From Closterium sp. NIES-65 (lineage: Eukaryota; Streptophyta; Zygnematophyceae; Desmidiales; Closteriaceae): a DNA stretch of 64,000 nucleotides. This document shows positions 5,325 to 63,904 of the stretch, in pieces; positions within the stretch are counted from its first letter, which is position 1, and every line of letters starts with the position of its first letter. The DNA is taken from assembly GCA_948144175.1 (NCBI GenBank), contig CANXME010000518.1, forward strand, positions 1 to 64,000, written 5' to 3'. The notes under the pieces are model-generated. The model saw nothing but the letters and a program-made list of their open reading frames with translations. It did no database searches and was not told the DNA's origin. The translations under genes were made by a program, and so were the position numbers.

Positions 5325-5605
5325 CTCACCTTGTGCATGGCTGGCGAGATGGTTCCAGTAAGGACAATCTCAGTGGGGGCGAAGTGAGCGAGGTGGGTCT
5401 CCAGCTCTCCCGCAGCACGCCATCAGTGAAGCACCCCTGTGCCACGTCACCCGTTAAGTCGACTCAAAACACACCTCACCTTGTGAGTGGCTGGCGTAAT
5501 GGTTCCAGTAAGAACGATCTCAGTGGGGGCGAAGTGAGCCGAGGTGGGTCTCCAGCTCTCCCCGCAGCACACCATCAGTGAAGCACCCCTGTGCCACGTC
5601 CCCTG
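5325..5605 (-). repeat. MSH3 exon tail plus splice donor, duplicated (150-bp spacing)
   Basis: On the - strand an exon ends at 5480 (CACAAG^gtgagg). A second copy of the last ~125 bp of that exon, with its own donor (CACAAG^gtgagt), ends at 5330. The junction holds TTTTGAGTCGACTTAA (reverse complement of 5454-5470). No acceptor or plausible intron separates the copies, so the two donors would act as alternative 5' splice sites. Confidence 0.85.
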
Positions 5606-7323
5606 TTGACGTCTCCACCACCGCCACCAGCCCTATCCGCACATCGCCCTCCGAACCTGCTCTCGAGCCTGCTCCCGAGCCTGCTCCCATGCCTGCTGCC
5701 GAGCCTGTTTCCCAGCCTTGAGACGAGTCCAGATCCGTGGTTGATGGGGAGAAGCCGGGAGAGGAAGCAGCAGCAGCAGTGCTACCACCAGCATCTCCCT
5801 TCCCTCCTTCCCTCTTCCCCTTCCCTCCCTCCCCCAACACTCTCCTCTGCTATACACACCAGGTAACTACTCAGCCGTCCCCCCATCCCCCCTCCCCCCT
5901 CCCCCATTCCCGGCCCCTTCACCCCACTCCCCCTTCCCCTCCCTCCCCTCCTTCCCCTCCCAGATCCTCCCCCGCTTCCAACGTTGCCCGCGTGTATAAA
6001 GCCGACAGATGCCGCCCGAACGGGCCGGCCTTGTTGCTCCCGTGGGCTTTAATGGCCGCCGTCTCGCTCTGCCGCACCACGCCCACCTTAAAGCCCGCCT
6101 CCACGAGCCGCCTCACGTGCACGTGCAGGCGGAACGTGGGGATCGACGCCGTCAGGAAAGCCCTGTCCACGTGGCAGTAGATGCCGAGAACCCGCGCCGC
6201 CACGTCAGCATCGGCCCCGAAAAACCGGAACTTGTAGCCGACCTCGACCAATAGCAAAACGTCCGGGTGGAGGCGTTTCAGCGCCACGACCTGCTCTTCT
6301 AACGGGGTGAGCTTTGTGCCTGGAAGGGGCAGGCTTATACCGGGGATGAAATCGCTACCCTCTTTGGTGGTGGTAGTGGGTGCGGGGTGTGGAGCGGAAG
6401 GATGAGAAACAACTCTCTCGGAAGGATGGGAGTCAAGCCTTTTGAGAAAGCTGGCTCGAATTGCCGAGAGTGGGGCGGCAGAGGTGGCTGTGGGAGCAGC
6501 AGCAGCAGCAGCAGCATGGGCAGCAGGTGCTGCTACAAGGGTCTTGCCCCTTTCTCCTTCCGCCAATTCCGTTCTCCCCCTTTTCAGTTACATCCTCCCA
6601 TGTCCCTCCCCCTGCCCCTGCCCCCACCTCATCCTCCCCTTCAATTTCCCCCCTTCCCCTCTTTCTCCGCCTCTCTCCTTCCCCCCACTCGTCCTCCCCC
6701 ATCGGTGCCCCCATTTCTTCTTCTTCTCCCCCATCCCCCTCATCCGCCCCTCCATCCGCCACTAATCTCCGCGCTGCCCGCCTTCCCCCCGCCCGCTTAC
6801 GCTTGAACACAACTCCTCCGCCTTCCCCCTCCGCTTCTAGCTCATCCCCCTTCCCCTCCGCCTTCCCCTCCGCCACACCTTCCTTTCCGCCCCCACTCCC
6901 CCCCGGTTCTTCCCCGCTTCCTGTTCTCCGCCACCCCCGATCCTCCCCACGAGGCCCCGCGGCTCCCCCATTCTCAGTTTCCGCTTCCGCCGATCCGATC
7001 TCCTTCACCAATCCGCTATTGACACCGCCACCACCACGGCTACTACCGAAACCGCCGCCGCCGGCGGCGGGGGAGGCGCGCGGCGGGCGGAGGAGGGAGG
7101 ACGGAGTGGTGACGCGGACGGCGACTGGCGGCTGTGATGGGGACGGGGTGTGGGAGGGGGAGGTGGGAAGCGGGGTTGGTTGCGCTGGGGACGGCTTGCG
7201 CGCGAAGAAGCGAGAGATGGTTGCCTGCTGCCGCTTCATGGCTGTTGCTGTCCCGTCAAGCGAAGGTAATGGTATGATTTGTAATTGTATTTGCTCCAAA
7301 TGTGACAAGATGTTCAAAACCAT

Positions 7324-7395
7324 GGGTGCTTGGTCTAGTGGTATGATTCTCGCTTCGGGTGCGAGAGGTCCCGAGTTCGATTCTCGGAGCTCCCC
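7324..7395 (+). tRNA. tRNA-Pro (CGG)
   Basis: The 72-nt cloverleaf has a D arm with GGTCTAGTGGTATGATTC. The anticodon arm is CTCGC-TTCGGGT-GCGAG (anticodon CGG) and the T arm CCGAG-TTCGATT-CTCGG. The acceptor stem GGGTGCT pairs with AGCTCCC with one T-T mismatch. No intron. A short T run follows near 7403 (TTTTT, a possible Pol III stop). It starts 85 bp upstream of the MSH3 ATG and is divergent from it. Confidence 0.93.
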
Positions 7396-7851: not shown

Positions 7852-10800
7852 ATGGATTTGACGTCGCACATCCGCCTCGCCAACGGCACCTCCATTCCCC
7901 GCCTCGCCTGTGCACCCTTCCCCTATTTAATCCTCCGCCCTTCCCCTATTCAATCCTCTGCTTTCCCCCTATTCCATCCTCCCCCTTCCGCCTTTTCCCT
8001 CTCCAATCCTCCTCTTTCCTCCTTACGACTCTTTATTCCTTACTCTTCCGCCTCCCCCCTGTTCCATGCCCCATTCCTCCGTATTGCCTGCACCTTCCCC
8101 TTTCCTCGTCCTTCCATTCATTCCCCCCTTCCGCCTTCCCCCCATCCCCCCTTCCCCCCATCTGCCCTTCCCCCATTCCCCCGTTCCGCCCTTCCCCCCT
8201 TCCCCCATTCTGCCCTTCCCCTCTTCCCCCTTCCCCCATTCTGCCTTCCCCCCTTCCCCCCTTGCGCTCTTCTGTCTGTGCGTGCATGTGCATGCATGCG
8301 TGCACGTGCTTCCAGTGGGCACATTTAAGGCCAAAGGTGGGGAGGTGAAGGAGGCAGTCAAAGCAGCACTGGCAGCGGGATACAGGCACATAGGTGAGCC
8401 CATGGGTGGCCCGCCCGATATTTTGCTCGCTGTATCACCCCATTCGTTTCATCTAAAGGCTGTTATATATTCTTTTAATGCAGACACTGCATCAGTGTAC
8501 AAGAACGAAGCGGAAGTCGGGGAGGCCATCAGAGAGTACGGCATTGCAAGGGAGGAGGTTTTTATCACCTCCAAAGCTTCGCCTTACGAGCATGGGTGAG
8601 GGTCATGCTGTGTGTAGGAATGTGCCCGTCAGTGCATACATGTGTGTGTGCTCAATCACACGCCTAGAGCGTGGACTGCGCATGTGATTGTGCACGTCAG
8701 TGCATACATGTGGACTGCATATCTTGGTGCATGCTTGTGCAGCACCTCCCTTACAGCCTGCTCTGCTCTCACCCACTCGCTCTCTCACTGCCTCACTCAC
8801 TCACTCTCCCTCTCCCTCCCTCACACCAGTTTCCAGCAGGCTCTAGCGGCATGTGCGGCGTCCTTGGAGCGCCTGCAAACAGACTACCTGGTGAGTGTGC
8901 GTCGAGTGAGTGAGAAAGAGAGTGTAGGAGTAAGGTGGCGCGCATGAGTTTGAGTGAGTGAGTGAGTGAGAAAGAGAGTGTAGGAGTAAGGTGGCGCGCA
9001 TGAGTTTGAGTGAGTGAGTGAGTGAGAAAGAGAATGTAGGAATAAGGTGACGTGCATGAGTTTGAGTGAGTGAGTGAGTGAGTGAGAAAGAGAGTGTAGG
9101 AGTAAGGTGACGCGCATGAGTTTGAGTGAGTGAGTGAGTGAGAAAGAGAGTGTAGGAGTAAGGTGACGCGCATGAGTTTGAGTGAGTGAGTGAGTGAGAA
9201 AGAGAGTGTAGGTGTAAGGTGACGCGCATGAGTTTGAGTGAGTGAGTGAGAAAGAGAGTGTAGGAGTAAGGTGACGCGCATGAGTTTGAGTGAGTGAGTG
9301 AGAAAGAGAGTGTAGGATTAAGGTGATGCGCATGAGTTTGAGTGAGTGAGTGAGTGAGAAAGAGAGTGAAGGAGTAAGGTGACGCGCATGAGTTTGAGTG
9401 AGTGAGTGAGAAAGAGAGTGTAGGAGTAAGGTGGCGCGCATGAGTTTGAGTGAGTGAGTGAGTGTGCGCATGTGCGGCGTCCTTGGAGCGCCTGCAAACA
9501 GACTACCTGGTGAGTGCGAGTGAGCTAGAGAGTCTCATGGTGCAAGGGTGTGTGAGTGAGTGAGAGAGTGTGCATGTGAGAGGTCAAGTGTGATTATGGA
9601 AGTGCGTGTGTGAGATGCTTACGGTGCCCACCTCCTTTCTCTTGCTCCACTCCACCGCTCGCACTCTCCCTATCAAGTGTGATTATGGAAGTGGGAGGGA
9701 CAGTGAATCCCTCCCACTCCTGCTCCCATTACTCTCCTCCCTCCCTCACTCACCCTCCCTCCATGTGCATTGACAACCCTCCCGCCCCTCGTCCCTTCTT
9801 AGGACCTCTACCTGCTGCACTGGTGCGTACCCCTCACCTGCCCTCGCCCTGAATCCTCGCCCTCATCCCTCATCCTTGCCCTCTTTTCCCTAGTCTTTTC
9901 TTACCCTCGTTTTACTCTGCCCGTTGACCACTTACCTTCCCAACTCAGATCACTTCATCTGTCAGTGCACCCCTGTGTTCACTGCCATTCTCCTCTCCCT
10001 CCTCGCTCCTCCCTCCCTGCTCTCCTCTCTCTCTCCTCTCTCCTCACTCTTCCCTCCTCCCTCCTCTCCGCTCCTGTTCTCTCCCCTCTCCCCTCTCCCC
10101 TCTCCCCTCTCCCCTCTCCCCTCTCCTCTCTCCCCTCTCCCCTCCCCTTATCCCCAGGCCCGGAGTGGCAAAGCTAGATAGGTGAGTAATCAACCCCTTC
10201 TTACTCCACTTGCCCTCCTCTGTCGTTCCTGCTCTCCCTGCTCTTTGTTTCCGCTTGTACCCTCGAACCTTACTGTATTGAGGCGTCTCAGGACTCTGTT
10301 ACCCCCCATTGACCTTCCTCCCACACGGCTCCCCGCCACCTGTCTTCCCAGGGCGTCTGAGAAGAATGCAGAGATTCGCCTGGAGTCTTGGCGCGCTCTG
10401 GAGCAACTTCAGAGGGAAGGTGGGGCGAGAGGGAGGAGCAAAGGGGAGTGGAGGGGTGTAGTGGAGACGGGGGTAGAAGGGGGTGGAGAGGGGTAGAGGG
10501 GCTGGGACGGTTTTTATAATTATTATTTTTCTTAGCACGTTATGGGCTTTTCCAGAATTTACATAACACGTGCCTTCCCTCCTCTTCCAGGTAAATGCCT
10601 CGCCATTGGAGTCAGCAACTTCACTGCCGCCCATCTCGACCACTTGATGACAAACTCTGCCACCCTGCCAGCTGTCAACCAGGTGGAGGTGCACCCGCTG
10701 CTGACTCAGCGGTCGCTGCGAGTCTACTGTGCTGAGCGTGGTATTTGTGTGGCAGCTTACTCACCCCTGGGGTGTGGCCAGGTGAGTCTCTGTTGTTATC

Positions 10801-11543
10801 AGGTGGGTCTCTGTTGCTACCAGGTGAGTTTCTGTTGCTGCCAGGTGGGTCTCTGTTGCTACCAGGTGAGTTTCTGTTGCTGCCAGGTGGTTGGCGTTTG
10901 AGCTGTGTGGCAGCGTCTGCACCTCTGTGGTGTGGTGACAAGTGGTGGCATTTGTGTGGAAATGTGCAGTTTGGATGCACTGTAGGTACCATGCAAGAGC
11001 AGATTGCTTACCTATTGCAATCAGCTGCTCAAGCAAATGTGCGTTTGCAAGTTGCTGCTCAATGTCTTACTCACTCGAGGTGCTTAGGATCACGTCAAGC
11101 ATATGTGGCACATACTCCGGTGAACTATCTGTTTTTGCTATATTTTATTCGTGTATGTTCTCAGCTGTTACAGCAACCAACTGTGCAACAAGTGGCCAAG
11201 GAAGTTGAGCAGTCAGCTGCTCAAGTGCTGCTCAGGTGGAGCCTACAGCATGGAATGGGTATGTTTCGTGTTGTCGATGCGTTTCAAACTGCTTGGTGCT
11301 TCTCGTTCCATCCATTATCTGACAGTTAATTTTGCTGCACATTGACTGTCCAATACAACCCCCCTCTCCCTGCCGTCCTTGTCATATTCGTGGCCAGTTA
11401 CAATACCCAAGTCTGTGAGCGCAAGCCGGATCGCAGAGAACGCTGACATATTCAATTTCTCATTGGACAAGGAAAAGATGGATGCATTGGATTCATTAGA
11501 TGAAGGTCGCCATTTTTGCTGGTCACCCATTGGGATTGCATAG
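7852..11543 (+). CDS. aldo-keto reductase, ten exons
   Basis: NAD(P)H-dependent carbonyl reductase of the AKR (TIM-barrel) superfamily, predicted 283 aa, probably cytosolic. Exons: 7852-7909, 8316-8393, 8484-8595, 8830-8890, 9803-9822, 10160-10183, 10352-10419, 10591-10781, 11165-11258, 11398-11543; all junctions are GT-AG and the phases join. The catalytic tetrad is visible: Asp in [13 protein letters not shown], Tyr in the same motif, Lys in VFITSKASP, His in DLYLLHWPG. The cofactor-binding signatures [15 protein letters not shown] and [10 protein letters not shown] are in order. There is no signal peptide, and it ends FCWSPIGIA. Introns 4 and 8 carry repeat arrays made of or bounded by exon-end sequence. 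The frame is intact, so the gene is probably functional; the substrate cannot be inferred. Confidence 0.92.
8891..9509 (+). repeat. intron-4 minisatellite bounded by two copies of the exon-4 end
   Basis: About ten copies of a 52-60 bp unit (GCGCATGAGTTTGAGTGAG... AAAGAGAGTGTAGGAGTAAGG) fill 8918-9460; copy length varies with the number of GAGT units. The array lies between exon 4's own end (8849-8890) and a 42-bp identical copy of that end at 9468-9509, each followed by GTGAGTG. Confidence 0.92.
10075..10150 (+). repeat. CCCCTCT microsatellite in the intron before exon 6
   Basis: Seven-base units CCCCTCT repeat about ten times directly before the acceptor at 10158-10159; it forms a very long polypyrimidine tract. 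Confidence 0.8.
10782..10889 (+). repeat. tandem 21-bp units, each GTGAGT/GTGGGT...CAG, at the exon-8 donor
   Basis: Directly after exon 8 (GGCCAG^) lie five 21-bp units, each starting GTGAGT or GTGGGT and ending CAG. Every unit boundary therefore recreates CAG^GTRRGT. The unit is seven codons and stays open ([21 protein letters not shown]), so each alternative donor would keep that reading phase. Confidence 0.88.
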
Positions 11544-15377: not shown

Positions 15378-16590
15378 GGTACGTAATAGCGAAGGCTGGT
15401 GGGGGGAATCATATAGGCGTCTAGGAGAGGAACGCCTAGAGAGTCTCGTCGCTTTCCCCGTTCGAGTCATGTTCAATGATACCCTTCCGCTAACGCGTGT
15501 ACCGTCCCTCTCCTCCTGTCCTCCTCGTTCTCCCATTTGCATTTGTGCAATTAAATCGGAGGCGCGGGATTCGGGTCGTATTAGCGTCCGGCTAAGGGTT
15601 GCGCCAAACACTGTTTGAAGCTCGCAAGCGTTCCTTAGGAGATCGTTGGCGATCAGAGGACGATAAACGGTATGTAAGAGCGAAGGGTGTTGGTGGGGGA
15701 TTCCTGTAAGCGTCTAGGAAAGGAACGCCTAGAGAGTCTCGTCGCTCTCCTTCGTCGCGTCATGTGCGTAATCACCCTCCCACTAACGCGTTTTACCGTC
15801 TTTCTCCCCTGTTCTCCTCCTCGTTCTCCCCCTGCATGTGCGCGTCCGAGCCACGGAATTCGAGCCGGCGCCATCGGTGCAGCGTCCGAACGAGGTCGCA
15901 GCAGACACCGCATGTGAAGTTTCGCCAAACGTCGCAGGCGTTACCTTAAATCTCGCACGCGATCAATGAAATGAAAGATTATAGGTACGTAAGCGGGACG
16001 GTTTGATGAGGGGATTCATGTAGGCGTCTAGGACTGCACCGCCTAGCGAGTCTCGTCACTTTCCTTCTTTGCGTCATGTGTGAATCTACCCTACCACTAA
16101 CGCGTCTGTTGTCCCTCTCCCCGCGTTCGCCTCGTTCCCCCTCTGCATGTGTGCGATTACTAATCGGAGGCTCGGGATTCGATCCAGCGCCATCGGTGCA
16201 GCGTCCGAACGAGATCGCACCAGACACCAGTGAAGAATCGGTAGAGGTCAAAGATTTCGCATGGGTTCCCTTCTATTTCAACGGTACTTATTAGCGAAGG
16301 CTGGGGGGGGGGAACACGTAGCAGTATAGGATAGGAATGCCTAGAGAGTCTCGCCGCTTTCTTTCTTCCCTTCGTATGGGAGATTACCCATCCACTAACA
16401 TCTGTGTTCTCACTCTCTCCCTGTCCTTACCTGTTCTCCCCCCTCTCCCTGTGCCATCGCTGCAGCGTACAAAGGAGTTGCTGCAGCCATTCTGAAAATC
16501 GCAAGCGTTCTTTCAAAGCTCACAAGCATTTGCCTGGAGATCGTTGACGATCCACAACGGTACGTAAGAACGAGACGGCTGGGGGGGGGG
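15378..16590 (+). repeat. tandem ~300-bp intron-plus-exon-like units, family A
   Basis: Five units start at a splice-donor-like motif: GGTACGTAA (15378), GGTATGTAAG (15669), GGTACGTAAG (15983), GGTACTTATT (16281), GGTACGTAAG (16558); spacing is 291, 314, 298 and 277 bp. Each unit after the donor shows CGCCTAGAGAGTCTCGTCGC-like sequence, a CTAAC branch-like motif (CCACTAACGCGT), a pyrimidine tract and, in units 2-4, TGCAG. About 100 bp of non-pyrimidine sequence then precedes the next donor. The segment before 16558 is open as VAAAILKIASVLSKLTSICL. No family recognised. Confidence 0.8.
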
Positions 16591-19500
16591 GGTGTAGTGA
16601 GTCGTAGAGCGTCGCCGCGCAGAGGCATGAGTCGTGTCTCTTGCTTTTGCCTGCGCCACTCTCCTACAGCTGTTTTTACCCCTCCCTTGTTGGTGCCGCT
16701 TCTGTGTCCGTGTCTCTCGCCCCGTGCGTGTGTGTGTGTGCCTCACGGCCTGCGAGCATGGGCAGCCGGAGCAACGGAGCAACCTGGAGCAACTTGGAGC
16801 AGCATACATGAAGGGAAGGCGTGGTGCAGGAGTGGCAGAGCAACGGACACAGTGTGGTACGCGGGAGGGGTTGCTTGCAGGGGGGAGTGTTGTGAGTCGT
16901 AAAGCGTCGCCGCGCAGAGGCAAGAGTCGTGTCCGTTGCTTGCAGGTCCATCACTCGCCACCTGCTGCTTCTTACCCTCCTATATTGCACTGCTTCTGTG
17001 TGTGTGTCTCTCTCCCCTCGTGTGTGTGTGCCTCGTGGCCTGCGAGACGGAGAGCAATGGCAGCACGTGGACGTCTCAAGTGAAAGCGTGCGCAGGAGTG
17101 GGAGAGTGGCGGGCGGAGCATGGTACGTGCCAGGGGGTGCTTGCAGGGGGGCAGTGAAGTGAGTCATAGGGCGTCGCCGCGCAGAGGCAAGAGTCGTGTC
17201 TGTTGCCCTTGCGTCCACCACACGCCTCCTGCTCCTTCTAACCCTCCCTTGTTGCATTGCTTCTGTGTCGCTGTGTATCTCTCCCCTCTCCCCATGTGTT
17301 GTGCCTCACCGCCTGCGAGACGGACGGGAATGGACGCAGCGTCCATTGCTGGCGCTCACGAGAGACAACCAGGAGCAGCACGCCTCAAGTGAAAGCGTGC
17401 GCAGGAGTGAGAGAGTGGCGGGCGGAGCATGGTATGTGCCAGGGGATGCTTGCAGGGGGGCAGTGAAGTGAGTCGTAGCGTGTCGCCGCGCAGAGGCAAG
17501 AGTCGTGTCTGTTGCTTGCGGGTCCATCACACGCCTCCCGTTGCTTCTAATCCTCTTGCAGCGCTCCTGTGTGGCTGTGTATCTCTCCCTTCTCCCCATG
17601 CGTGTGTGTGCCTCACGGCCTGGGAGGTGGAGGGGACCGCACTGAGTTGAGGGGCGATGGGCGGAGCTTCCATTGCCGGTTCGTACCAGAGACAACCGTC
17701 CAGCAAGGAGAAGGGGCAGGAACGAAGCTTTGACTGCTCCTTGACGCATTTAAGTATTTTCTTCTCTGTACTCTTTGCTTCGCCTCGTGTGTTGCCAAAC
17801 GCTCATCGCGCTGCATTACATCTGTCTGCATTACATTGCTTTCTCCTCTGAAATCTTTCCACTGGCTGCTCTGAATGTGCATGTGCAGGTGCGTGTGTGC
17901 GTGTGGGGGAGGGGTTGTGTGCATGCATGTGTGCGTGTGTGCATGCGTCTGTGTGTGTGCATGCCTGTGAGTGTGCCTCTCAGCCCGAGTGTGTGGCAGG
18001 TTGCTCTTTGGACGGTTGCCTGCAGATCGGTTGGGACAACAGGCTCCTTTCGTTTCCAATGCAAGAGGTACCTGGGATTGAAGACGCACCAGCAGGGCGG
18101 ATGCATCATGCGTTGCTTGCTCCTTGTCGTCTCAGTCCTGTCGCCCGCTGCCCTCTGCCATCTATTCAGCTCACGCCAGTGCTCTTTCACATCCAAAGTC
18201 TCGCATGTAATCGCTTCTCCTCGCCTTACTCAGACCGCCTCTTGTCTACATCCTTGCCATCCTTCTTCCCCTCTCCCCAGAGTAGCAAGAACTCACGCAT
18301 CACCAGTGCCTGCAGCAGCTGCAGGGTGATGGTGAGCACACAAGGAGTAGTGAGTTGATGAGACCGTCTAGTATACCACTTCTCCATTCACCCTTCTCTT
18401 GTTTTCTCGTGTGCACTTCTGTCATGTCTACAATCTTTCAGTTCTGTCAGTTCTGCATCGCAGCACACTGCATGGCACCGTAGCGCACCGCAAGGCACGG
18501 CAGCGAACCGCAAGGCACCGCTGCCCACCGCAAGGCAGCGCAACCCACCGCAGGGCACCGCAGCGCACTGCAAGGCACCACAGTGCACCGCAGCGCACTG
18601 CCCGCATGGCACAACAGTGCACCACAAGGCACCGCACAGCACCGCAACGCACCGCAGCTCATTGCAGCGCACTGCAGCTCACCGCAACGCACTGCAGCTC
18701 ACCGCAGTGCACTGCAAGGCACCACAGTGCACCGCAGCTCACCGCATGGCACAGCAGCGCACCGCAAGGCACCAAAGTCCACCGCAAGGCACCACACGGC
18801 ACCGCAGCGCGTCGCAAGGCACCGCAGCGCACTGCAAGGCACCACAGTGCACCGCAGCGCACCGCAGCTCACCGCACATCATGGCTCTGCCACCGCAGAG
18901 CGTGGCCGGCGGGGCAGTGCGGTGAGTCGTAGGGCGTCACCGCTCAAAGGCAAGAGTCGTGTCTCTTGCTTTTGCCTCCGCCACTCGCCTCCTGCTCCTT
19001 CTAACCCTCCCTTGGTTGTTGGTGCCGCTTCTGTGTGGCTGCCTCTCCTCCCATGCGTGTGTGTGCCTCACCTCACAGCCTGCGAGCACGGGCAGCGACA
19101 GCAACCGAGCAACCTGGAGCAGCACGCCTCAAGTGAAGGCGTGGCTCGTAGGAGCTAAGAGCGGCGGACAGAGCATGGTACGTGCAGGGGGTGTTTGCAG
19201 GGGGTAATATGGTGAGCGTAGGGTGTCGCCGCGCAGAGGCAAGAGTCGTGTCTCTTGCTTTTGCTCCGCGACTCGCCTCCTGCTCCTTCTAACCATCCCT
19301 TGTTGGTTGGTGCCGCTTCTGTGTGCGTGTCTCTCTTCTCATGTGTGTGTGTGCCTGACGGCCAACAAACGGGTAGTGGCAGCAACCGAGCAACCTGGAG
19401 CAGCACACATGAAGGGAAGGCGTGGCAGAGTGGGCGGACAGAGCATGGTACGTGCCAGGGGGTGATTGCAGGGGACAGTCTGGTGAGTCGTAGGGCGTCG

Positions 19501-20010
19501 CCGCGCAGAGGCAAGATTCGTGTCGTGTCTCTTGCTTTTGCCTCGGCCACTCCCCTCCTGCTGTTTCTAACCCTCGCTTGTTGGTGCCCCTTCTGTGTGT
19601 GCCTCTCTCTCCCCGTGCGTGTGTGTGTGTGCCTCACGGCTTGCGAGCATGGGCAGCCGGAGCAACGGAGCAACCTGGAGAAACTTGGAGTAGCAGGTGT
19701 GAAGAGAAGGCATGGTGCAGGAGTGGCAGAGCAGCGGACAGAGTGTGGTACGCGCCAGGGGGTGCTTCTGGGGGGGAGTGTAGTGAGTCGTAGAGCGTTG
19801 CCGCGCAGAGGCAAGAGTCGTGTCTGTTGCTTTTGCGTCCGCGACTCGCCTCCTGCTCCTTTTAACCTTCCCTTTTTGGTTGGTGCCGCTTCTGTGTGCG
19901 TGTATCTCTCCCCATGCATGCGTGGGCCTCACGGCCTGCGAGTCGAAGAGGATTGGCATGGAGAGGACGCGGAACGGGTGGGAGGAAAGGCAGCATCCGG
20001 GCTTTGACTT
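16591..20010 (+). repeat. tandem ~290-bp intron-plus-exon-like units, family B
   Basis: Eight units start at GTGAGTCGTAGRGCGTCGCC-like sequence near 16593, 16889, 17157, 17466, 18919, 19209, 19481 and 19781 (spacing 268-309 bp, with one 1.45-kb gap). Each contains a GAGTCGTGTCTSTTGC stretch, CTTCTAACCCTCCC (branch-like CTAAC), a pyrimidine/GT-rich tract ending GCCTCACGGCCTGCGAG, then a purine-rich segment (GGAGCAACCTGGAGCA...) and GCATGGTACGTGC. It continues family A, with which it shares the general plan. Some segments are open in one frame; no product is recognised. Confidence 0.8.
18440..18890 (+). repeat. degenerate 10-bp satellite (GCACCGCARN)
   Basis: About 45 diverged copies of a ~10-bp unit (CGCAAGGCAC / CGCAGCGCAC / CGCAGCTCAC) sit in the gap between family-B units. 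The repeat is open on both strands only because of its composition. Confidence 0.85.
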
Positions 20011-46402: not shown

Positions 46403-46613
46403 AACGGGGGGCATGGTAAGCAGCAGGGCAGCGGGGCAGCGGGGCAGCGGGGCAAGGCAGGGCAAGGCAAGGCAGGTACCTGGGGTAGGTCTGGTCGAGG
46501 GTGACCTTCTGGTCGTACTTGCGCCACTCCCACCCGTCCATTGGCATATCGGGCGCTGAGGGCATGCGTGGCATGCGCGGCCTGCCAGGGGGGGGGGGGG
46601 AGGGATAGGGGGG

Positions 46614-46815: not shown

Positions 46816-46845
46816 GCCACTCCCACCCGGTCACCACACGACACG

Positions 46846-47040
46846 CACCTCTTATGCAGCAGCACTACTGCCCCATCGTCACCATCCTCCTCTGCTCCAC
46901 CAGCCACCCCCCCCAGGGCCAACCCCACCACCACCAGCACCACAGCCGGCAGCAGCAACTGACTTTTGAGACGACTCAAGGCACGGTCACCACACGACAC
47001 ACACCTCTTATGCAGCAGCACTGCCCCATCGTCACCATCT
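46846..47040 (-). repeat. exon-2 tail and donor duplicated around a palindrome (WRKY copy 1)
   Basis: The tail GACGATGGGGCAGTRSTGCT-GCATAAGAG^gtgygtg ends at 47005 and again at 46849 (156 bp). Between the two lies CTTGAGTCGTCTCAAAAG (reverse complement of 46963-46980), a variant of the same palindrome. Translated, the block DGDDGAV..LLHKRCVSCGDR appears twice. Confidence 0.88.
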
Positions 47041-48321: not shown

Positions 48322-48394
<73 letters not shown>

Positions 48395-50373: not shown

Positions 50374-53300
50374 TTACTCTCCTTTGATCTCCGGCAAGTC
50401 AATAGGCGACGGCAGCGGCGCCTGCGCCACGTCAGAAAAAACCCGGGCGGTATTCAGCGGCGACAGCATGTTAAACGGCGACTGCATCTGACCTGGCGAA
50501 TCCCTCCCCATCGGCCACCTGGCGCCGCCCGGGCCAATCAGAATCCGAGGCGAATCCCGAGGGAGGGAGGACATCCACATGGGCGTGGGGAGGGGACCTT
50601 GCATGAGAGCAGACGGGAGCGGGCCGGTATACCCGGGAAAAGGATTACTGGAGTTCCCAGAGGCGCCTGCAGAGGAGCCCATCCCAGAGGCGTCATTGGC
50701 AGAGGCCCATGCACTGGGATTAGATTGTGCGTCCCGCGGCTTGATGTCAATGCTTGGTTGGCTCTCCAACTCCTCCTCTCCTGTGCTCTCAACCCCACCC
50801 ACATTCCCACTCCCATTTTCAGCCCCATTCCCGTTCCCATCCCCGTTCCTGATACTTTCTTCCTTGGTGCGGTTGGTGTCAGCTCCCTCCTCTCGCTTCA
50901 TGTCTGCTTCTGCACTGTTATCTCCTCCTCCTCCTCCTCCTCCTCCTCCTCCTCCTCCTCCTCCTCCTCCTCCTCCTCCTCCTCCTCCTCCTCCTCCTCC
51001 TCCTCCTCCTCCTCCTCCTCCTCCTCCTCCTCCTCCTCCTCCTCCTCCTCCTCCTCCTCCTCCTCCTCCTCCTCCTCCTCCTCCTCCTCCTCCTCCTCCT
51101 CCTCCTCCTCCTCCTCCTCCTCCTCCTCCTCCTCCTCCTCCTCCTCCTCCTCCTCCTCCTCCTCCTCCTCCTCCTCCTCCTCCTCCTCCCCCTCCTCCTC
51201 CTCCTGCTGCTGCTGGTTTATCTGCTCCGGTCCACAGGCTTGCGGCCTTTGAACCATCCACGCCATCCACCCTATCCGCTTGATGACCTGCGGGATCAGC
51301 CTGGACTGTTGCTAACGTGGCACCACAATCACCACCACCTCCCCCTCCCTCTGACTGCTTCTGCTGCTGCTGCTTGCTTGTGGTCAGCCCATCAGAAGAC
51401 ACGGCAAGCCCCAGGCACGCTTCTTGCTGCTCACTCCTCTCTCCTGCCCGTGACTGCTGCGTCTGCAGCGTGGCTTGGGCACTGGAAGGAGGAGCACAGA
51501 CAACACCTGCAGCAGAAGCACCTGCAGCAGCAGCAGCAGAGGCAGCGGCAGCCCCACCAGTTACAGCAGCAGCACCACACCCACCACTACCACCACGCTC
51601 CACTTGCTTCCCCGCTTCCTCAACCGACCCTCTCGTTACTCCACTCCCATTGCTTTCACCGCTGCCCACTCCCTTCAACACCTCTCCCTGCCCAAAACCC
51701 GACAGGAAATCGCGGCCTTTGGGGGTGCTCTGCTGTTTCATCCCCCCATTCTCCCCACCAGTCGTCTCCCCTCCGTTCGCCCCACCTACCCTGTGACTCG
51801 CCCCCCCCTTGTCACTCCCAGGAGACGCGAATCCCTCGGAAAACTCTTCTCCCATGTCTGTAGGCTCGTGGCTGTGACTGTGACTGTGACTGTGCCCGTG
51901 ACTGTGCCCGTGACTGTGCCCGTGACTGTGACTCCCACTTGCTTCTACCACCACCCCTGGTCCTGCTTGCACCTCGCCTCCTCCACCCCCTCCTCCTCCG
52001 ATCTCTCCTCCTCCCAGCCGCACCTGGAGAATGTCAAAAGGGGGTTGCTTCACTGCCTGTGCTGCAGAGCCAATCGCTCCCGCGGCACAAGCAGCAGCAG
52101 GAGCTGCAGAGGTAACCTCGGGAGCAGCGGGCGCAGCTACAGCAGCAGCAGAACCCGCAGCAGCAGTAGAGTGGGGAGCGGGAAGAGCCAGGGAAGGCGG
52201 TGCAGCCGGGGCGAGAAGAGACAGCGGCGAGGGAGCAGCAAGAGCACCAGCACCAGCACCGGCACCACCACCACCACCACCACCGGCACCACCGGCACCG
52301 GTGGCACCGGCAGCACCAGCAGCGACGGCACCACCACCAGCAGCAGCAGCAGCAGCAGCAGAAGCAGGGGGAGGAGCGGGGAGAGCAGCAGCGGCAGTTC
52401 CATCCACAGGGCCGTCATGAATGATGGTGATGGTGACGGGGCGGGGGGGCGGCTTGGAGTGGTTGTGCTCGCCCACGTACTTGATGCGCCAGTTGAAGGG
52501 GTTGTCGTTGCACCTCTCCGCCCACTTCTTGGCGGGGCAGGGATGAGACCCCGTGGTCTTGTGTGCACAGCGGAAGTAGCTCCTGTGGGGGGAGAGGAGG
52601 ATCGGGGGAAAGCAGGGAGGAGAGGGAGTGGGGAAGGGGGGAAAAGGGGAAGCGGGAAAGGGGGAAGGGGAAAGGGGAGAAAGAGGGGGTGAGAGAGAGT
52701 GGGTGGTTATGCTCGCCAACGTATTTGATGCGCCACTTGACGGGGTTATCGTTGCACCTCTCCGCCCACTTCTTGGCCGGAGAGGGGTATTAGGGCGGAG
52801 GAGGATGGCAGCACAGTAATGGGGCGCATGGAGGCAGCACAGCAAGGCGGCGCATGGTAGGCAGCAGGGCAAGGCAGCTAGCTACCTGGGAAGGTCTGGT
52901 CTGGCCGAGAGTCACCTTCTGGCCGTACTTGTTCTAAGTCGACTCAAAACTTGAAGAAGGGGGGTATGGCAAGCAGCAGGGCAGCAGGGCAGGGCAGCAG
53001 GGCAGGGCAGCGGGGCAGAAGGGCAGGGCAGCGGGGCAGAAGGGCAGAAGGGCAGAAGGGCAAGGCAGGTACCTGGGGTAGGTCTGGCCGAGGGTGACCT
53101 TCTGACCGTACTTGCGCCACTCCCACCCGTCCATCGGCATCTCCGGCGCTGACGGCTTCGATGACGGCATGCGCGGCCTGGCAAGAGGGAAGGGAGGGCG
53201 GGAGAAAGAGGGTTAGAAAAGGACGGTACGGAAGTGTGGTGGGGAAGGGTGGAGGAGTCACACGTGCATGGGAGTTTTTCAAAGATCTTAGAGCACAATC

Positions 53301-55844
53301 ACGCAGACCACCTATGGCGCCTATGCATTAAACACCTCTCATGCAACACGCACCTCTTATGCAGCACTGCTCCATCGTCACCGTCCTCCTCTGCACAACC
53401 CCCACCACCGCCACCACCCCCACCGCCACCAGCAGCGCCAACAGCAGCAGCCGCAGCACTCCGCTTTGTCCCGCCCCCACTCCCACTCCCTGCGCCTCCG
53501 CTTCCGCCTGCTTTTACACCCTCACTATCTCCCCCCTCACCCGTGCCCTTGCCCCCGTCCTTCCCCGCATCCTTCCCCGCGCCCCCTCCCCCTCCTCCCC
53601 CGCTCCATCCCTGGAACCCCCGCCCTTCCGCGTGCGGGTGGTTCCCCGCGCCCCCTTTCCGCTGCCCCGGGTGCTGCCCCGGGTGCTGCCCGTGCTGCCC
53701 CGCGTGCTGCGGCGGCGCATGCACCTTCTGCGCGCCCTCGGTTGGCGGAAGCTGTTTCTGCGCCCCCCCTTCAACCCCCAGATGCGATTTCTGCGGCGCC
53801 TCAAAGCCCTGATGCTGCCCCGCGCCCCCTCCCGCCGTTCCGCCCCCTCCCGCGGACATCCATGCGCTCGCTCCGCCACGTCCTCCCTCCTTGCCTTCCG
53901 CGGACGGCACAGGCGGAGGGGGCGCGGGGGACCCCATCCCCCCTGTGCTACCCCTCCCGCCCATGCTTCCCCCCATCGGGGGGGGATGATGCATGGCGTT
54001 ATTTCCCCCCGGGCGCGGCCAGAACGCGAGCCCGTGCGGAGACATCCACATCGGCGGAAGCACAGGGGGACCTGGAACCCCCGCGCCTCCCGCTCCTGCC
54101 GCCGCCGAACCAGGGGCTCCGGGCGCCGCCGAACCTCCTCCGCCGGAGCTGCTCATCCCGTCCGCGTCCGAAGGCCCGGGGGCGGATCCGAGCGGCGGAA
54201 GCGGCGGGTGCGCGGAGCCCGGGGGGCGGAAGACGCCGTGCGGGGGAAGGACTCCGGGCGGCGGCATTGGGAACATCCCGGGCGGAAACGGCATCATTCC
54301 GTGGTGGCTCATTCCGGGGTGATTCATGCCGTGGTGATTATTCATCCCGTGATGATTGTTCATCCCGTGGTTCAGCTGCTGCAGCACTGACGCGACGACG
54401 TCGCCCACGCTGCGATCCGAACCAAGGTTCATGTCGCCAAGCATTCGCAAATGCATCCCCAGCTCCTCGGGAGTGGGTCGCCCCGACGCTCCCGCTGCCG
54501 CTGCCGCGCGAAAAGCGGCGGACGCGGCGGCTGCAGCAGCAGCGGTGCCGGGATTGGCCGGAGCGGATGCGTCGGTTCCGTTGCCCGCAGCAGCGGGAGA
54601 AGCGTTGGCGGCAGCAGCGGATGGGACGGCGGAACGCGCGGGAGAGGAGGGATGAGTGGCGGTCTGACCGTTGGGATGGTCGGGGGGGAACGATGCCGCG
54701 TTGTCGCCGTTGCTATCCCCGTTCTGCTGCTGCTGCTGCTGCTGATGGCTCTGATTGTGGTTCTGAAGCGGATTATTGTGATGCTGCTGCTGCTGTTGCT
54801 GATGAGGATGCGGATGCTGCGAGTACGAGTTGTCCTGTTGGTCCACGTGTTGCTCCTCAGCGCAGCGCGAGTGTGGGGGCGATGCCACGTCAGCAGGAGG
54901 AGATTCCGCGTCAGGGTTCGGGGGTCCGAGAAGAGCCTGGCAGCTTCCCAGGGCCTCCATCGCTGATTGGACCAGATCTTGAGCTTCTGCCACGTCACTG
55001 GGAAAGGGCAGGGATAACGAGAAAAAAAAAACAACGGAAATAAAGGAGGTGAACGACAAGACAAGGGGACGACGCGAAAGGCATTGAGAGGCTTTGTGCG
55101 TCGAACGCCCGTCAAAGGTGCCAGGAAGAGACACATTCGAACCACAGCGGACAACTATGCGAAGATTGTAAGCAGAGCTGTCGAAGCCTCGAACATCCTC
55201 GCCAAAGAAGACGAAGACAACGGCGAAGGCGACGGCGACGGTGAAGACAAAGGCCAAGGGGAAGACAAAGGCCAGGGGGGAGACAAAGGCGACTGCGAAG
55301 ACGAAGACAAAGGCGAAGACGACGACGAAGGCGAAGGCGAAGACGAAGACGAAGAACATTAGTTCGACTTCGGAAAGCCGCGTATTGAAAAGTTTGCATC
55401 AAGTAAAGCAAAGAACGTGCTCCTCAGCTCACCGTCTAAGGCTTTCATCGAAGTCCGAAATTGCTTGACCCGGAAACACAACCACTGCTTATCTTAATTC
55501 TGACAAAAGCCTCACAACGAAAAGGCTGGCCACTCACAGGCGGCGGCTCTCATCAAAGTCCGGGTCCGCTTGTCCCGGAAATTGCCGGCCTTCAACTTAT
55601 TATGACAGAAACTTAACAGTGAGAAGGCTACTCACCCGCTAAGGCTCTCATCAAAGTCCGGGTCCGCTTGTCCCGCGGATTGCTTCGCCATCTCAACACG
55701 TAGATACATCGTATTAGCGTGCTTCATCAGCACCTTGGTTTGCGAGTTTGCCAGCGTCGTCGCGTCTAGAAGCTTCTTACACAGCGTACTTAGCGACTCT
55801 AATTGGGTCTCCATGGTTGGAGCGTGGATCGACTCGCCGGACAT
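50374..55844 (-). CDS. WRKY transcription factor, intact copy, with long polyGly tract
   Basis: DNA-binding regulator of the plant WRKY family (W-box binding, nucleus). Exons 55844-55636, 54997-53354, 53177-53073 and 52582-50374 join in phase to 1388 aa. Exon 1 is helical (METQLESLSTLCKKLLDATT). Exon 2 has His/Gln runs (HPHPHQQQQQQHHNN), a conserved RMLGD-like segment and Pro/Gly/Ala-rich sequence. The single WRKY domain spans the exon 3-4 junction: DGWEWRKYGQKVTLGQTYPR, SYFRCAHKTTGSHPC, then IKYVGEHNHSK. The zinc ligands are spaced C-x9-C-x23-H-x-H, longer than the usual Cx4-5C or Cx7C. C-terminal of the domain are a His/Gly/Ser tract (HGHSHGHS) and an uninterrupted polyGly of about 95 residues. 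It ends DLPEIKGE. Introns carry partial exon copies. Confidence 0.9.
50926..51190. repeat. (TCC)n microsatellite coding polyGly
   Basis: About 265 bp of almost perfect CCT/TCC triplets inside exon 4 of the WRKY gene, read as Gly codons (GGA/GGG) on the - strand. It is open in every frame on both strands, so apparent polyPro, polySer and polyGlu frames here are artefacts. Confidence 0.97.
52690..52795 (-). repeat. partial upstream copy of the WRKY zinc-finger exon (copy 2)
   Basis: The segment encoding AKKWAERCNDNP..WRIKYVGEHNH in the true exon (below 52582) recurs about 225 bp upstream (gene sense) with substitutions and one frame change. It lacks the CAHKTTGSHPC start, so it is not a usable alternative exon. 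Confidence 0.8.
52882..52955 (-). repeat. extra copy of the WRKY-exon tail with donor (copy 2)
   Basis: AAGTACGGCCAGAAGGTGAC...CCCAG^gtagct (exon-like end 52886) repeats the end of the true WRKY exon (53073), 187 bp away. It is preceded by GTTTTGAGTCGACTTAGAAC (52931-52950). It has the same layout and palindrome as in copy 1. Confidence 0.85.
55425..55665 (-). repeat. exon-1 tail array with donors (WRKY copy 2)
   Basis: The exon-1 tail CGGACCCGGACTTTGATGAG with a following donor occurs at the true end (55636) and again about 94 and 200 bp downstream in gene sense (near 55540 and 55432), increasingly diverged. Confidence 0.8.
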
Positions 55845-60445: not shown

Positions 60446-63400
60446 ATGTTCGAGGAGACTGGCGATCCAAGTGTACATTGCGGCCACGGTCACAGCACTT
60501 CAGGTGCTTCGTCAGGTGTTTCTACATGTGCATTTTCAGATTCCCAGCCACAGAAATCCCAGCAATTCCCGGCCAATCAGCCCATAGGAGGCTCCCAGGA
60601 AGGATCAGACATCTGTTCTCTCAACGTGCGACAAAATCTCTCTTCCTTCAATCAATCGGTCGACACTTCTTCAATGGTGTCTGTCTCGAGTCCCACGTCG
60701 AATTCGTGCAATCTATTGGTTGACATTCCAACCGCCGCGTATGACTCGTTTCGCGCCGCTTCCCCCGACCCAGAAGCTTCTTCTTATGCCGAACCGCCAT
60801 TTACCAAAGCTTCCTCAGGCACTTCCTCACCGCTGCTTACCAAGCCTAGCTGGCTGGTCAAGGTCCGCGGCGCGCTCACCCCGCGCGAGTGGATAACCGT
60901 CGGATGCCTCGCCGCCGCGATCTGCGCGCTGCACGTTATTGGCTGGGGCACGCTGATCGTGTTCGTGGTTCCCGGGCATTACGCCTTGGCAGGCGGGGGC
61001 GGCACGTTCGGCGTGGGTCTGGGAGTGACGGCGTACATGCTGGGGATGCGGCACGCGTTCGACGCGGATCACATTGCAGGTACGTAAGAAGGACTTTGCG
61101 GGTAACTTGGGAGGCACGTTCGGCGTGGGTCTGGGAGTGGCGGCGTACATGCTGGGGATGCGGCACGCGTTCGACGCGGATCACATTGCAGGTACGTAAG
61201 AAGGACTTTGCAGGTAACTTGGGAGGCACGTTCGGCGTGGGTCTGGGAGTGGCGGCGTACATGCTGGGGATGCGGCACGCGTTCGACGCGGACCACATCG
61301 CAGGTACATATGAGCTTCATTGCGGGAAACTTTTGAGCCGCCTCCAAGGGTATGGGAGTGACGGCGTACATGCTGGGGATGCGGCCCGCTTTTGACGCCC
61401 ATCACACTGCATGTGAAGCAATCTTATTCGAATGCAACCCTTGTCCGAGATGGGAAATTCTGGGATTGGACACGTGGGAGAGTGAGAAAGGGGCGAGGGG
61501 GGGGACGGGGGAAGAGGGATGACGGAAGAGGGACGAGGAAAGAGGGACGAGGGAAGAGGGATGTGGGGGGTTGTGAGAGTGGGGGGAGTAGGGGGGTGTG
61601 AGTGGGTTGGGAGAGGTGAACTGTGACACTGGCTTCGCCTTACTCCCTCCTCCCCGACCCCCTTCCTCACCCCACACCCCCTACCCGCATCCCCCCCCTT
61701 TCCCTCCTCCCTCCTTCCCCTGCCTCGTCCAATCAGCGATTGACAACACGACGCGCAAGTTCCTAGCGGAGGGGAGGAGGACGCTCACAGTGGGGTTCTG
61801 GTCCGCCCTCGGCCACTTGACATATGAGCCCCTAGGCCACTCCTCCGTTGCCCTCCTCTCCACCAGTGAATTGTAGGGCGAATGGGGTGGCAAGCGGGGA
61901 GAAAGGACCCTACGCGCTCCTTCTCCTCCCCAACTCCACCTCAAACTCCATCTCATTCCCCTTCTTTAAACCCTCTTTTCTCCCCCTTTCCACCCCTTGC
62001 CACCCCCCCCCTCCCCCGGCCTGTCCCCTGCCTCGTCCAATCAGCGATTGACAACACGACGCGCAAGTTCCTAGCGGAGGGGAGGAGGACGCTCACTGTG
62101 GGGTTCTGGTTTGCCCTCGGCCACTCCTCCGTTGTCTTCCTCGCTGCGCTCATCATCGCTGTGGGCTTTAAGGCCTTTGCAGGAGAGGTAAAGATCGGGC
62201 TTTAAGCCCTTCTGGCGGGGTTCTGGTTCGCCCTCGGCCACTCCTCCGTTGTCTTCCTCGCTGCGCTCATTATTGCTGTGGGCTTTAAGGCCTTTGCGGG
62301 AGAGGTGATTAAATGTATGTGGCTTGCCTTTTGAGTCGACTCAAAATGTGGCTTGCCTCACTGGCTAGTCGTTGCTGTGGGGCTGTTTTTTATTTGAGTC
62401 GACTCAAAAACAGGCTAACCGAGCTAGTCGTTGCTGCGGGGCTGTTTTTTATTTGAGTCGACTCAAAAACAGGCTAACCGAGCTAGTCGTTGCTGCGGGG
62501 CTGTTTTTGATTTGAGTCGACTCAAAAACAGGCTAACCGAGCTAGTCGTTGCTGCGGGGCTGTTTTTGATTTGAGTCGACTCAAAAACAGGCTAACCGAG
62601 CTAGCCGTTGCTGCGGGGCTGTTTTTGATTTGAGTCGACTCAAAAACAGGCTAACCGAGCTAGCCGTTGCTGCGGGGCTGTTTTTGATTTGAGTCGACTC
62701 AAAAACAGGCTAACCGAGCTAGCCGTTGCTGCGGGGCTGTTTTTGATTTGAGTCGACTCAAAAACAGGCTAACCGAGCTAGCCGTTGCTGCGGGGCTGTT
62801 TTTGATTTGAGTCGACTCAAAAACAGGCTAACCGAGCTAGCCGTTGCTGCGGGGCTGTTTTTGATTTGAGTCGACTCAAAAACAGGCTAACCGAGCTAGC
62901 CGTTGCTGCGGGGCTGTTTTTGATTTGAGTCGACTCAAAAACAGGCTAACCGAGCTCGTCGTTGCTGTGGGGCTGTTTTTGATTTGAGTCGACTCAAAAA
63001 CAGGCTAACCGAGCTAGCCGTTGCTGTGGGGCTTCTGCGGGAGAGGTACCCAGCTGAATCTCAATCCAACAATATGACCTCATTTCTGTAAAAGTATATG
63101 TGCAATTTTTGTGTGAATATGTACGTTTGTACAGTATGTGTGTACATGTATAGTGTGATTGGGTGTACCATATCTACACCCACACCAGGTGGAATCGGAG
63201 GAGTCACAGCTGCATGTGATTCTCGGCCTTGTGGGTGCGCTCGTCTCGAGCCTCTTCCTTCTGCTTATAGGAGCCATCAATCTCCTCGTTTTGATCCACC
63301 TCGTTAAGGTACATGTCCAGTTTTGAGACGTCTCAGAACTAGTATTAGTTCACCATAACTTATTTTTAACCCTCTTCCTGGCGCTTTTTGTCGCAAACCA

Positions 63401-63755
63401 CCCTGTTGGAGTGCACTTCTTCAACCCCTCTTCACCCTACTCCACCCCTCTCCACCACTCTCCACCCTGCTCCACCGCTCTCCACGCCTCCAGGTGTTCC
63501 GTGCAATGCGCAAGGGCACAGCCAGAGAAACAGACTTAGAGGACCTGACATTACAAGGGGGGCTGTTCACCCGCTGCCTGGGACGGGTAGCAGCGCTGAT
63601 AAAGCACCCGCCCCAGATGTACCTGCTGGGGTTCCTCTTTGGGCTCGGCTTTGACACGGCCACGGAGGTGGCTCTGCTCTTCATGGCTGCTGGCGCTGCT
63701 TCCTCTGGCCTCCCTTGGTTTGCGATCCTCTGCCTTCCGGTCATCTTTGCTGCTG
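60446..63755 (+). CDS. NiCoT-family nickel/cobalt transporter (partial, runs off the right end)
   Basis: Secondary transporter of the HoxN/NixA type moving Ni2+/Co2+ across a membrane. Exons used: 60446-61079, 62045-62187, 63189-63308, 63494-63755 (phases join); the 3' end lies beyond the window. The first ATG after an in-frame TAA was chosen. About 135 Ser/Pro-rich N-terminal residues precede the first membrane span (ITVGCLAAAICALHVIGWG). NiCoT signatures: GMRHAFDADHIAAIDNTTRK (helix II, metal selectivity), GFWFALGHSSVV, and LGFDTATEVALL. Further membrane segments are FLAALIIAVGFKAF and LVSSLFLLLIGAINLLVLIH. Exons 1, 2 and 4 each have extra partial copies with splice sites. Only the first exon-1 donor keeps the frame (later ones read through GGT ACG TAA). 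Confidence 0.88.
60999..61415 (+). repeat. exon-1 tail and donor repeated four times (112-bp unit), NiCoT
   Basis: The last ~80 bp of exon 1 (GGCACGTTCGGCGTGGGTCT ... GACGCGGATCACATTGCAG) plus GTACGTAAG and ~25 bp of intron form a unit. It ends at 61079, 61191, 61303 and, diverged, near 61412. Spacings are 112, 112 and 109 bp. Confidence 0.95.
61733..62304 (+). repeat. three copies of NiCoT exon 2
   Basis: Copy A starts at 61737 after CAATCAG^, matches for ~75 bp, then carries an extra stretch and decays. Copy B (62045-62187) is intact, with CAATCAG acceptor and GGAGAG^gtaaag donor. Copy C (about 62215-62304) repeats only the exon tail and donor (GCGGGAGAG^gtgatt). Confidence 0.92.
62329..63045 (+). 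repeat. 59-bp palindrome-bearing minisatellite bounded by exon-end copies
   Basis: Eleven copies of a 59-bp unit (GAGTCGACTCAAAAACAGGC ... GCGGGGCTGTTTTTGATTT), spaced exactly 59 bp from 62401 to 62991, preceded by the palindrome TTTTGAGTCGACTCAAAA at 62329-62346. GCGGGAGAG^GT, the exon-2 tail and donor, stands immediately before (62304) and after (63045) the array. Confidence 0.96.
63320..63339. repeat. palindrome GTTTTGAGACGTCTCAGAAC just after the exon-3 donor
   Basis: A 20-bp near-perfect palindrome of the same family, 11 bp downstream of the NiCoT exon-3 donor (63309). No exon duplication is seen here. Confidence 0.8.
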
Positions 63756-63904
63756 GTACGCCCACTCTGCCCTGCCTGTATCCCACTGCCCTGCCTTCAT
63801 CCCACAGCCACGGAGGTGGCTCTGCTCTTCATGGCTGCTGGCGTTGCCTCCTCCGGCCTCCCTTGGTTCGCCATTCTCTGCCTGCCCGTCATCTTTGCTG
63901 CCGG
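63656..63904 (+). repeat. NiCoT exon-4 tail duplicated
   Basis: CCACGGAGGTGGCTCTGCTC ... GTCATCTTTGCTGCYG occurs at 63660-63755 and again at 63808-63903. The second copy is preceded by CCCACAG (a usable acceptor), but its donor region reads GGTTTTTGAG instead of GGTACGCC. Confidence 0.93.

Follow-up and report, generated by a model that had tools for sequence, protein, structure and literature searches.

Local exon-piece duplications and a genome-wide palindromic insertion family in Closterium sp. NIES-65

The window analysed here is a stretch of 64,000 nucleotides from Closterium sp. NIES-65, positions 1-64000 of contig C518 (CANXME010000518.1) in an assembly of 874 Mb in 2,400 contigs. It carries genes read as MSH3, an aldo-keto reductase (AKR), two WRKY paralogues (WRKY1 and WRKY2) and NiCoT, in which pieces of exons are repeated locally. 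An earlier reading of the same DNA from its letters alone, called here the sequence-only reading, attributed these repeats either to a process tied to splice junctions or to selection for decoy donors. A more promising lead comes from short palindromic insertions, TTTTGAG-nnnn-CTCAAAA, which form a genome-wide family and are usually accompanied by long target duplications. This family marks about a third of the exon-piece duplications in the window, and it could not be matched to a known mobile element.

Judged by its protein matches, the window is nuclear Closterium DNA, because its PPR/LAGLIDADG protein (21573-24881, minus strand; domains assigned by Pfam) is 78% identical to a protein of Closterium sp. 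Naga37s-1 and its WRKY gene matches proteins of Closterium Naga37s-1, Yama58-4 and NIES-53. The PPR/LAGLIDADG protein is also 56% identical to a protein of Closterium sp. NIES-68, with 66% covered. The exon models are our own and derive from reading frames and splice motifs, with the Closterium proteins P0004-P0006 bearing on WRKY. The names MSH3, AKR and NiCoT come from the sequence-only reading and from reading of frames, with no family search behind them. Near-identical copies of the region lie on contig C1809, which agrees with the window over about 64 kb, and on contig C1165, which agrees from position 52,443 on.

Self-alignment of the window sequence recovered the exon-piece duplications that had been listed at the MSH3, AKR, WRKY and NiCoT loci, and these duplications are real. 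Thirteen events were placed on the exon models. Nine span a 5' splice site (donor): MSH3, AKR exon 4, the AKR exon-8 minisatellite, the WRKY exon-1 tail, the WRKY1 exon-2 tail, the WRKY-exon tail common to both paralogues, and NiCoT exon 1, exon-2 tail and exon-4 tail. Three span a 3' splice site (acceptor), namely the WRKY1 exon-3 head twice and the NiCoT exon-2 head, while one, in WRKY2 exon 3, spans neither and is the only event inside an exon without a splice site. The events are listed below, with X denoting the duplicated block.

5325-5455 and 5475-5607, minus strand: MSH3 exon tail with donor, two copies by self-alignment; X of 131 bp, 92% identity
8849-8918 and 9468-9532, plus strand: AKR exon-4 tail with donor; a 56-bp array between the copies; no palindrome seen
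10778-10890, plus strand: 21-bp minisatellite beginning at the AKR exon-8 donor; no palindrome seen
45660-45730 and 45767-45830, minus strand: WRKY1 exon-3 head with acceptor, first event; no palindrome between the copies
45803-45969 (about 45803/45891), minus strand: WRKY1 exon-3 head with acceptor, second event; X copies 78% alike, flanking a palindrome; WRKY2 is the empty site
46320-46378 and 46463-46521, minus strand: tail of the WRKY exon of WRKY1 with donor, by self-alignment; a palindrome adjoins a copy
46828-46956 and 46984-47110, minus strand: WRKY1 exon-2 tail with donor; X copies 80% alike, palindrome between them; WRKY2 is the empty site
52459-52542 and 52703-52786, minus strand: interior of WRKY2 exon 3, with a copy in the upstream intron; the block holds no splice site
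52860-52931 and 53051-53114, minus strand: tail of the WRKY exon of WRKY2 with donor; palindrome at 52932-52949
55440-55585 against 55545-55683, minus strand: WRKY2 exon-1 tail repeat; no palindrome seen
60997-61411, plus strand: NiCoT exon-1 tail with donor, 112 bp repeated 3.7 times; weak palindrome-like stretch before the last copy
61693-61817 and 62003-62125, plus strand: NiCoT exon-2 head with acceptor; no palindrome seen
62100-62189 and 62217-62306, plus strand: NiCoT exon-2 tail; 4 of 4 differences at codon position 3
63655-63757 and 63803-63905, plus strand: NiCoT exon-4 tail; 9 of 10 differences at codon position 3; no palindrome between the copies

Since acceptor-spanning and exon-interior events exist, the duplicated blocks do not all end at donors, and a further acceptor case lies just beyond the window at the NiCoT exon-5 head (64015/64251). 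The sequence-only reading had held that in nearly every case the blocks end at or just after exon-intron borders and recreate a donor. Nine events do span a donor, and donor-like strings were found in most copies inspected, but the other four events span none; moreover, GCATGT stands in the last NiCoT exon-1 copy and GGTTTTT in the second exon-4 copy, so a good donor is not recreated in every copy. The supposed threefold NiCoT exon 2 does have extra copies, but these are one head copy and one tail copy around a full exon. The two MSH3 copies differ by two single-base indels; read by frame, each (5325-5607) holds one frame-shifting base, at different places, for which a pseudogene, odd splicing or a base error are all possible.

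The NiCoT exon-4 and exon-2 tail copies look as if under coding constraint, to judge by the codon positions at which they differ. This pattern is not clear in the exon-2 head copies (2 of 3 differences at codon position 3) or the exon-1 copies (1 of 2 and 3 of 4). A 53-nt GT..AG spacer would join the second exon-4 copy (63755-63905) in frame to exon 4, and splicing through this spacer is predicted to keep the frame. A diverged gene copy was considered as the source of the exon-4 repeat and rejected, as a genome-wide search for a further relative returned only three near-identical contigs, with two matches each. Exon-like tails and heads, recognised by reading of frames, are also repeated locally at three loci chosen for their palindrome rather than for exons (L048, L032 and L052), and because of these local exon-piece duplication seems common in the Closterium genome.

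The sequence-only reading did not describe what lies between the copies. In 4 of the 13 window events, or 5 if a weak case at NiCoT exon 1 is counted, the spacer contains the palindrome TTTTGAG-nnnn-CTCAAAA; these events are MSH3, WRKY1 exon 2, the WRKY-exon tail and the second WRKY1 exon-3 head, the last with two centre bases. Allowing up to 3 mismatches, the window holds 22 matches against 2.6 expected, 11 of them in a 59-bp array. The palindromes and related stretches are the following.

5452-5469: palindrome separating the MSH3 copies, with 3 mismatches and a truncated left arm; its right arm continues into CACACCTCACC
45872-45891: perfect 20-bp palindrome AGTTTTGAGATCTCAAAACT between the X copies of the WRKY1 exon-3 head
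46379-46396: palindrome abutting the WRKY1 WRKY-exon-tail copy, with 2 mismatches; found at the corresponding site of WRKY2 (52932)
46964-46981: palindrome between the WRKY1 exon-2 tail copies, 2 mismatches
61331-61348: weak palindrome-like stretch before the last NiCoT exon-1 copy
62317-62358: clean insertion consisting of a 13-bp X, TTTGAGTCGACTCAAA and a 13-bp X
62364-63033: 59-bp array, 11.4 units; 11 palindrome matches, one in each unit
63321-63338: palindrome in NiCoT intron 3; X not detectable
63906-63923: palindrome-like stretch 3' of the second NiCoT exon-4 copy

As the WRKY-exon-tail palindrome occupies the same site in WRKY1 and WRKY2, it is older than the gene duplication.

Across the 874-Mb assembly, the exact pattern occurs at 30,327 places, against 4 for a reversed control pattern. 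Three places that were looked up are each present in three near-identical contigs, and for this reason the unique places may amount to about a third of that number. In about 175 kb of sequence, long perfect palindromes are in excess, and the excess consists mostly of this family. The centre is itself self-complementary in 42 of 47 exact members, counted once per array (TCGA in 24, ACGT in 8, GCGC in 8 and AATT in 2). For the commonest centre, TCGA, the longest common half, read outward, is GACTCAAAAGTCACCTCGTTACnATGGCACACGA. The 15-mer CTCAAAAGTCACCTC occurs 3,235 times, compared with once for its control, and the longer half GTCACCTCGTTACnATGGCA 222 times, compared with none; among the matches listed for the 15-mer, at least five pairs form a full two-sided 34-mer.

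Target duplication beside the palindrome was scored on 50 listed places of the 30,327, which fall in 33 stretches, with the first palindrome of each stretch taken. Under a strict rule, by which X must directly adjoin the palindrome on both sides, 27 of 33 stretches carry an X, against 100 of 600 random places; a looser direct-repeat test on the same stretches gives 29 of 33 against 130 of 600. In the 27 events, X measures 16-237 bp (median 36 bp) with a median identity of 0.96. Similarly, in the window and the first loci a direct repeat (score at least 40) spans 84% of 55 palindromes, with array units taken singly and up to 2 mismatches allowed, against 21% of 399 random places. In 164 kb comprising the window and randomly placed loci, the strict rule finds X at 14 of 21 near-exact members of the family, each array counted once, at 0 of 12 lone half motifs and at 5 of 54 other palindromes of at least 12 bp. 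Places picked for a long arm show X in 13 of 20 cases, with a lower score limit. Approached from the side of the duplications, the palindrome (up to 3 mismatches) stands at the junction of 16 of 61 gapped local duplications, gaps of 0-120 being kept, against 18 of 500 random windows. Arrays and the WRKY1/WRKY2 pair are counted among the 16.

In the clear empty-site cases, insert and target duplication arrive together. Of the three tandem units at L048, two contain the 16-bp block CGGCCCAGCCCCAAGC a single time, whereas the third carries this block in two copies separated by a 28-bp palindrome, without loss of sequence. WRKY2 serves as the empty site for the WRKY1 exon-2 and exon-3 events, having neither the palindrome nor the second copy at either; a separate 18-bp repeat (53333-53367) lies in WRKY2 near the exon-2 event site. 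Loose alignments to units without the insert were obtained at L032, L051 and L054. With a conserved insert and empty sites, simple slippage is rejected for the gapped X-palindrome-X events, which agrees with the sequence-only judgement that slippage alone is insufficient and that a systematic process is at work. Slippage is a likely origin for the AKR exon-8 minisatellite and similar ones.

The insert consists of two inverted copies of one terminal sequence, set head to head, with a common inner end and each truncated at its own outer point. This structure was examined in TCGA-centre events whose X copies are at least 0.85 identical (n=22); the loci L068-L087 behind the analysis had been picked in advance for one long arm. 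At 34 of 44 junctions, the residues fit a cleanly truncated arm, with 0-12 nt kept beyond the core. The lengths of left and right arms are uncorrelated (r = -0.14, 14 events), and the outer ends are thus independent. The ends of X show microhomology to the next template bases of 1.09 nt on average, compared with 0.42 nt after shuffling, a value not reached in any of 5,000 shuffles; this amounts to about one extra base. A few cut palindrome cores were also seen, at MSH3, L072, L073 and L075.

Minisatellites that contain the palindrome or its half in their units were noted at 62364-63033 of the window, at L014 (5680-6017), at L017 (71-389) and at G000:C43:1010347-1011036, as if palindrome insertions seeded such arrays. 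Loci L092 and L093, on two contigs, hold an inverted repeat spanning about 1 kb, and each of its ends bears both the palindrome and the long half. A larger element ended by the half motif was considered and provisionally rejected, since only 12 lone half motifs occur in 164 kb.

On balance, the exon-piece repeats of the window are local duplications, many of them gapped X-spacer-X structures, that probably arise from fill-in of staggered breaks followed by end joining, with a large subclass whose spacer belongs to the palindrome family. In this subclass, both target ends would anneal to the same short template and be extended to its end, the two template copies would be joined, and fill-in of the overhangs would yield X. 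An X across one splice site may be tolerated by selection, and an X inside an exon would mostly be removed; exon tails and heads would survive in genes because an X over one splice site leaves the original site usable. A more specific proposal, possible but short of probable, is that the palindromes record a new kind of ultra-short mobile insertion. An enzyme would nick the target at points staggered by tens to hundreds of bases, pair each broken end through a few bases with one small template, copy that template to its end and join the two copies head to head. In this way palindromes and duplicated targets would be placed at tens of thousands of sites, seeding arrays and duplicated exon borders across the genome.

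Several observations weigh against the break-repair interpretation. Only the 4 of 13 window events named above, or 5 with the weak one, have the palindrome between their copies, and 45 of the 61 gapped duplications have other spacers, varied by eye among the 32 inspected. The palindrome therefore explains part of the duplication pattern; the process is common, yet it is not the whole explanation. By the strict rule, 6 of 33 stretches lack an immediate X, and within the window extended by 10 kb an immediate X accompanies just 3 of 8 near-exact members, although at 62329, counted with the five misses, there is a 13-bp X under the size limit. Among indels of at least 8 bp between the window and its near-identical contigs (about 64 kb against C1809, 20 kb against C1165), no palindrome insertion was found. 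No enzyme, template gene or RNA for the insertion was identified. The clustering of donor-like motifs near 3' borders, considered below, is not predicted by the break model itself, and the microhomology fits end-joining capture of a ready-made palindrome too.

Such capture, in which a ready-made palindromic DNA fragment is taken up by microhomology end joining without templated synthesis, is a serious rival to templated end writing, even if rather unlikely. It accounts for the same junctions, that is, trimmed arms and short microhomology, at the price of requiring an abundant DNA fragment of unknown origin. As the search pattern demanded an intact core, the rarity of trimming into the core is no argument against capture.

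The palindrome might instead have come first, with a hairpin-prone site breaking and its repair duplicating the neighbouring DNA. The six stretches without an immediate X would suit this order of events, as would the many (X-palindrome)n arrays, which are expected of hairpin-driven expansion. It is nevertheless improbable, as the empty sites (two L048 units, and WRKY2 at two events) are missing both the palindrome and the second X, and other palindromes of at least 12 bp have X in just the 5 of 54 cases given above.

The sequence-only reading had offered, as one of two possibilities, a splice-junction-anchored duplication, for example one linked to RNA or R-loops, in which breaks or copying begin at exon-intron borders. 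This was approached through GGTRAG, a donor-like motif rather than a proven donor, and through the range of 5-40 nt from the 3' border that had been suggested for clustering. Within 111 duplications (25-260 bp, at least 75% identity, gap 0-300; the set includes loci L024-L056, picked for the palindrome), 16 of 20 GGTRAG motifs inside copies lie in this range, where 10.3 would be expected (p = 0.003); three control motifs give no such signal (4 of 9, 6 of 15 and 7 of 17). Additionally, the MSH3 X ends at donor +5, and the similarity of the NiCoT exon-2 and exon-4 copies stops right at GGT. The motif does cluster there, but 18 of the 20 motifs sit in copies less than 93% identical (2.25 per kb), and just 2 in copies of at least 93% identity (0.91 per kb in these younger copies). 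It could stem from age-related loss of intron similarity, with exons kept by selection. Against that explanation, the matching test on acceptors, with few cases, gave no sign of clustering (3 of 5 where 2.2 would be expected, and 6 of 11 where 5.9 would be).

The motif is also no denser in duplicated DNA than beside it. The 111 duplications contain 20 in 10,195 bp against 84 in 40,110 bp (1.96 against 2.09 per kb), and the 27 palindrome-linked X blocks contain 3 in 1,441 bp against 17 in 8,088 bp (2.08 against 2.10 per kb), 24 of the 27 having none. Together with the copies across acceptors and inside an exon, and with the palindrome as a marker common to many events, this leaves anchoring at splice junctions unsupported. 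The splice site is probably not what anchors the duplications, and an RNA- or R-loop-linked process starting there is quite improbable, with the donor clustering keeping a weak form of that explanation alive.

Selection for decoy donors, by which intronic copies of exon tails would be retained as splicing regulators, is very improbable. The GT is often kept in copies, and the NiCoT exon-2 tail and exon-4 copies differ nearly only at codon position 3. The latter pattern, however, points to coding use of both copies, the 53-nt spacer giving an in-frame repeat; furthermore, the donor is lost in some copies, and the MSH3 copies carry their two indels. An assembly artefact of collapsed or mis-joined haplotypes, which the three near-identical copies of each of the three tested places might suggest, is unlikely in the extreme, because the WRKY2 copy at 52703-52786, with intron sequence, is read through in protein P0004 of Naga37s-1, with identity at 43 of 43 residues, and empty sites exist, while C1809 and, where it reaches, C1165 agree, and one motif is common to 30,327 sites.

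Several known systems share some of these properties. The short palindromic repeats of Volvox carteri organelles come in several families, lie in introns and spacers and are often nested, but they are organelle elements of 11-79 nt, usually with a TAAA/TTTA loop, and in the available part of that report their authors consider them inert in the nucleus and the word 'duplication' is absent (PMC2670323). Like them, the Closterium family is a short hairpin-forming repeat dispersed in many copies; by description it differs in being nuclear and numerous, in its self-complementary centres and in the long duplications of its targets. Studies of patch-mediated repair in rice and of paired nicks in Arabidopsis reportedly belong with tandem duplication at staggered breaks. 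Such duplication leaves a duplicated target between the overhang ends, local and of variable length, and the fill-in of overhangs by polymerase alpha-primase is among the closest steps described, whereas the abstract of that work has no conserved inserted palindrome (PMC8355091). The Closterium events share with patch-mediated and staggered-break repair the direct target repeats around a filler and the one-copy empty site. The filler, however, is conserved, as its 30,327 exact copies against 4 for the control indicate.

Long interspersed nuclear element (LINE) inserts are usually long. LINE twin priming, another of the closest steps described, starts from both target ends on a single RNA and produces inverted pieces with microhomology; the accompanying target duplication peaks near 15 bp for L1 and near 5 for ZfL2-1 (PMC4245944). 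The structure of the Closterium junctions fits this scheme, but these inserts measure just a few tens of bases, their two pieces share one terminus, and the duplications are as long as 237 bp; neither a template RNA nor a linked reverse transcriptase was found. Introner elements of Amoebophrya are also spreading short elements with inverted and direct repeats, yet their direct repeats measure 3-5 nt and the element itself forms the intron (PMC7789003), compared with an X of 16-237 bp here. Terminal-inverted-repeat transposons and miniature inverted-repeat transposable elements have a fixed-length target-site duplication and constant outer ends, whereas X varies over that range in 27 events and arms keep 0-12 nt beyond the core at the 34 clean junctions of 44.

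A viral source was rejected, as 11 IMG/VR stretches with an nCGn pattern scored 16-25 and none had X abutting on both sides. GTDB genome contigs gave 0 matches to the palindrome 24-mer. In the literature searched, the exact palindrome sequences were not reported, and, among the titles and abstract openings listed, no such palindromic family appeared beyond the Volvox paper, though other papers may exist. The string 'palindrom' is absent from the accessible text of the Closterium genome paper (PMC10407611).

Further features of the window lie outside these events. A LINE at 36642-42482, with endonuclease and reverse-transcriptase domains, TTCTGTA flanks and an A-tail, has no counterpart in the C1809 allele and is a recent insertion. 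As a maker of the palindromes it was rejected, its insertion, with an A-tail and a short TTCTGTA duplication, looking different. Two arrays of units of about 290-300 bp, about 74-84% alike, lie between AKR and the PPR gene (16583-17626 and 18908-19942). Rfam at gathering scores returned one tRNA and nothing else.

If the proposed insertion is true, palindromic insertions of very small size, with target duplications that are long and variable, would be a major source of local duplication in a genome from the algal group nearest land plants, and they would make exon pieces, extra splice sites and minisatellites. An RNA beginning GACUCAAAAGUCACCUCGUUAC would then be the template half expected under templated end writing. 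The family would also provide a countable signature of paired nicking and end writing that can be compared between mating strains. More generally, exon-border patterns noticed by eye can arise through insertion and selection.

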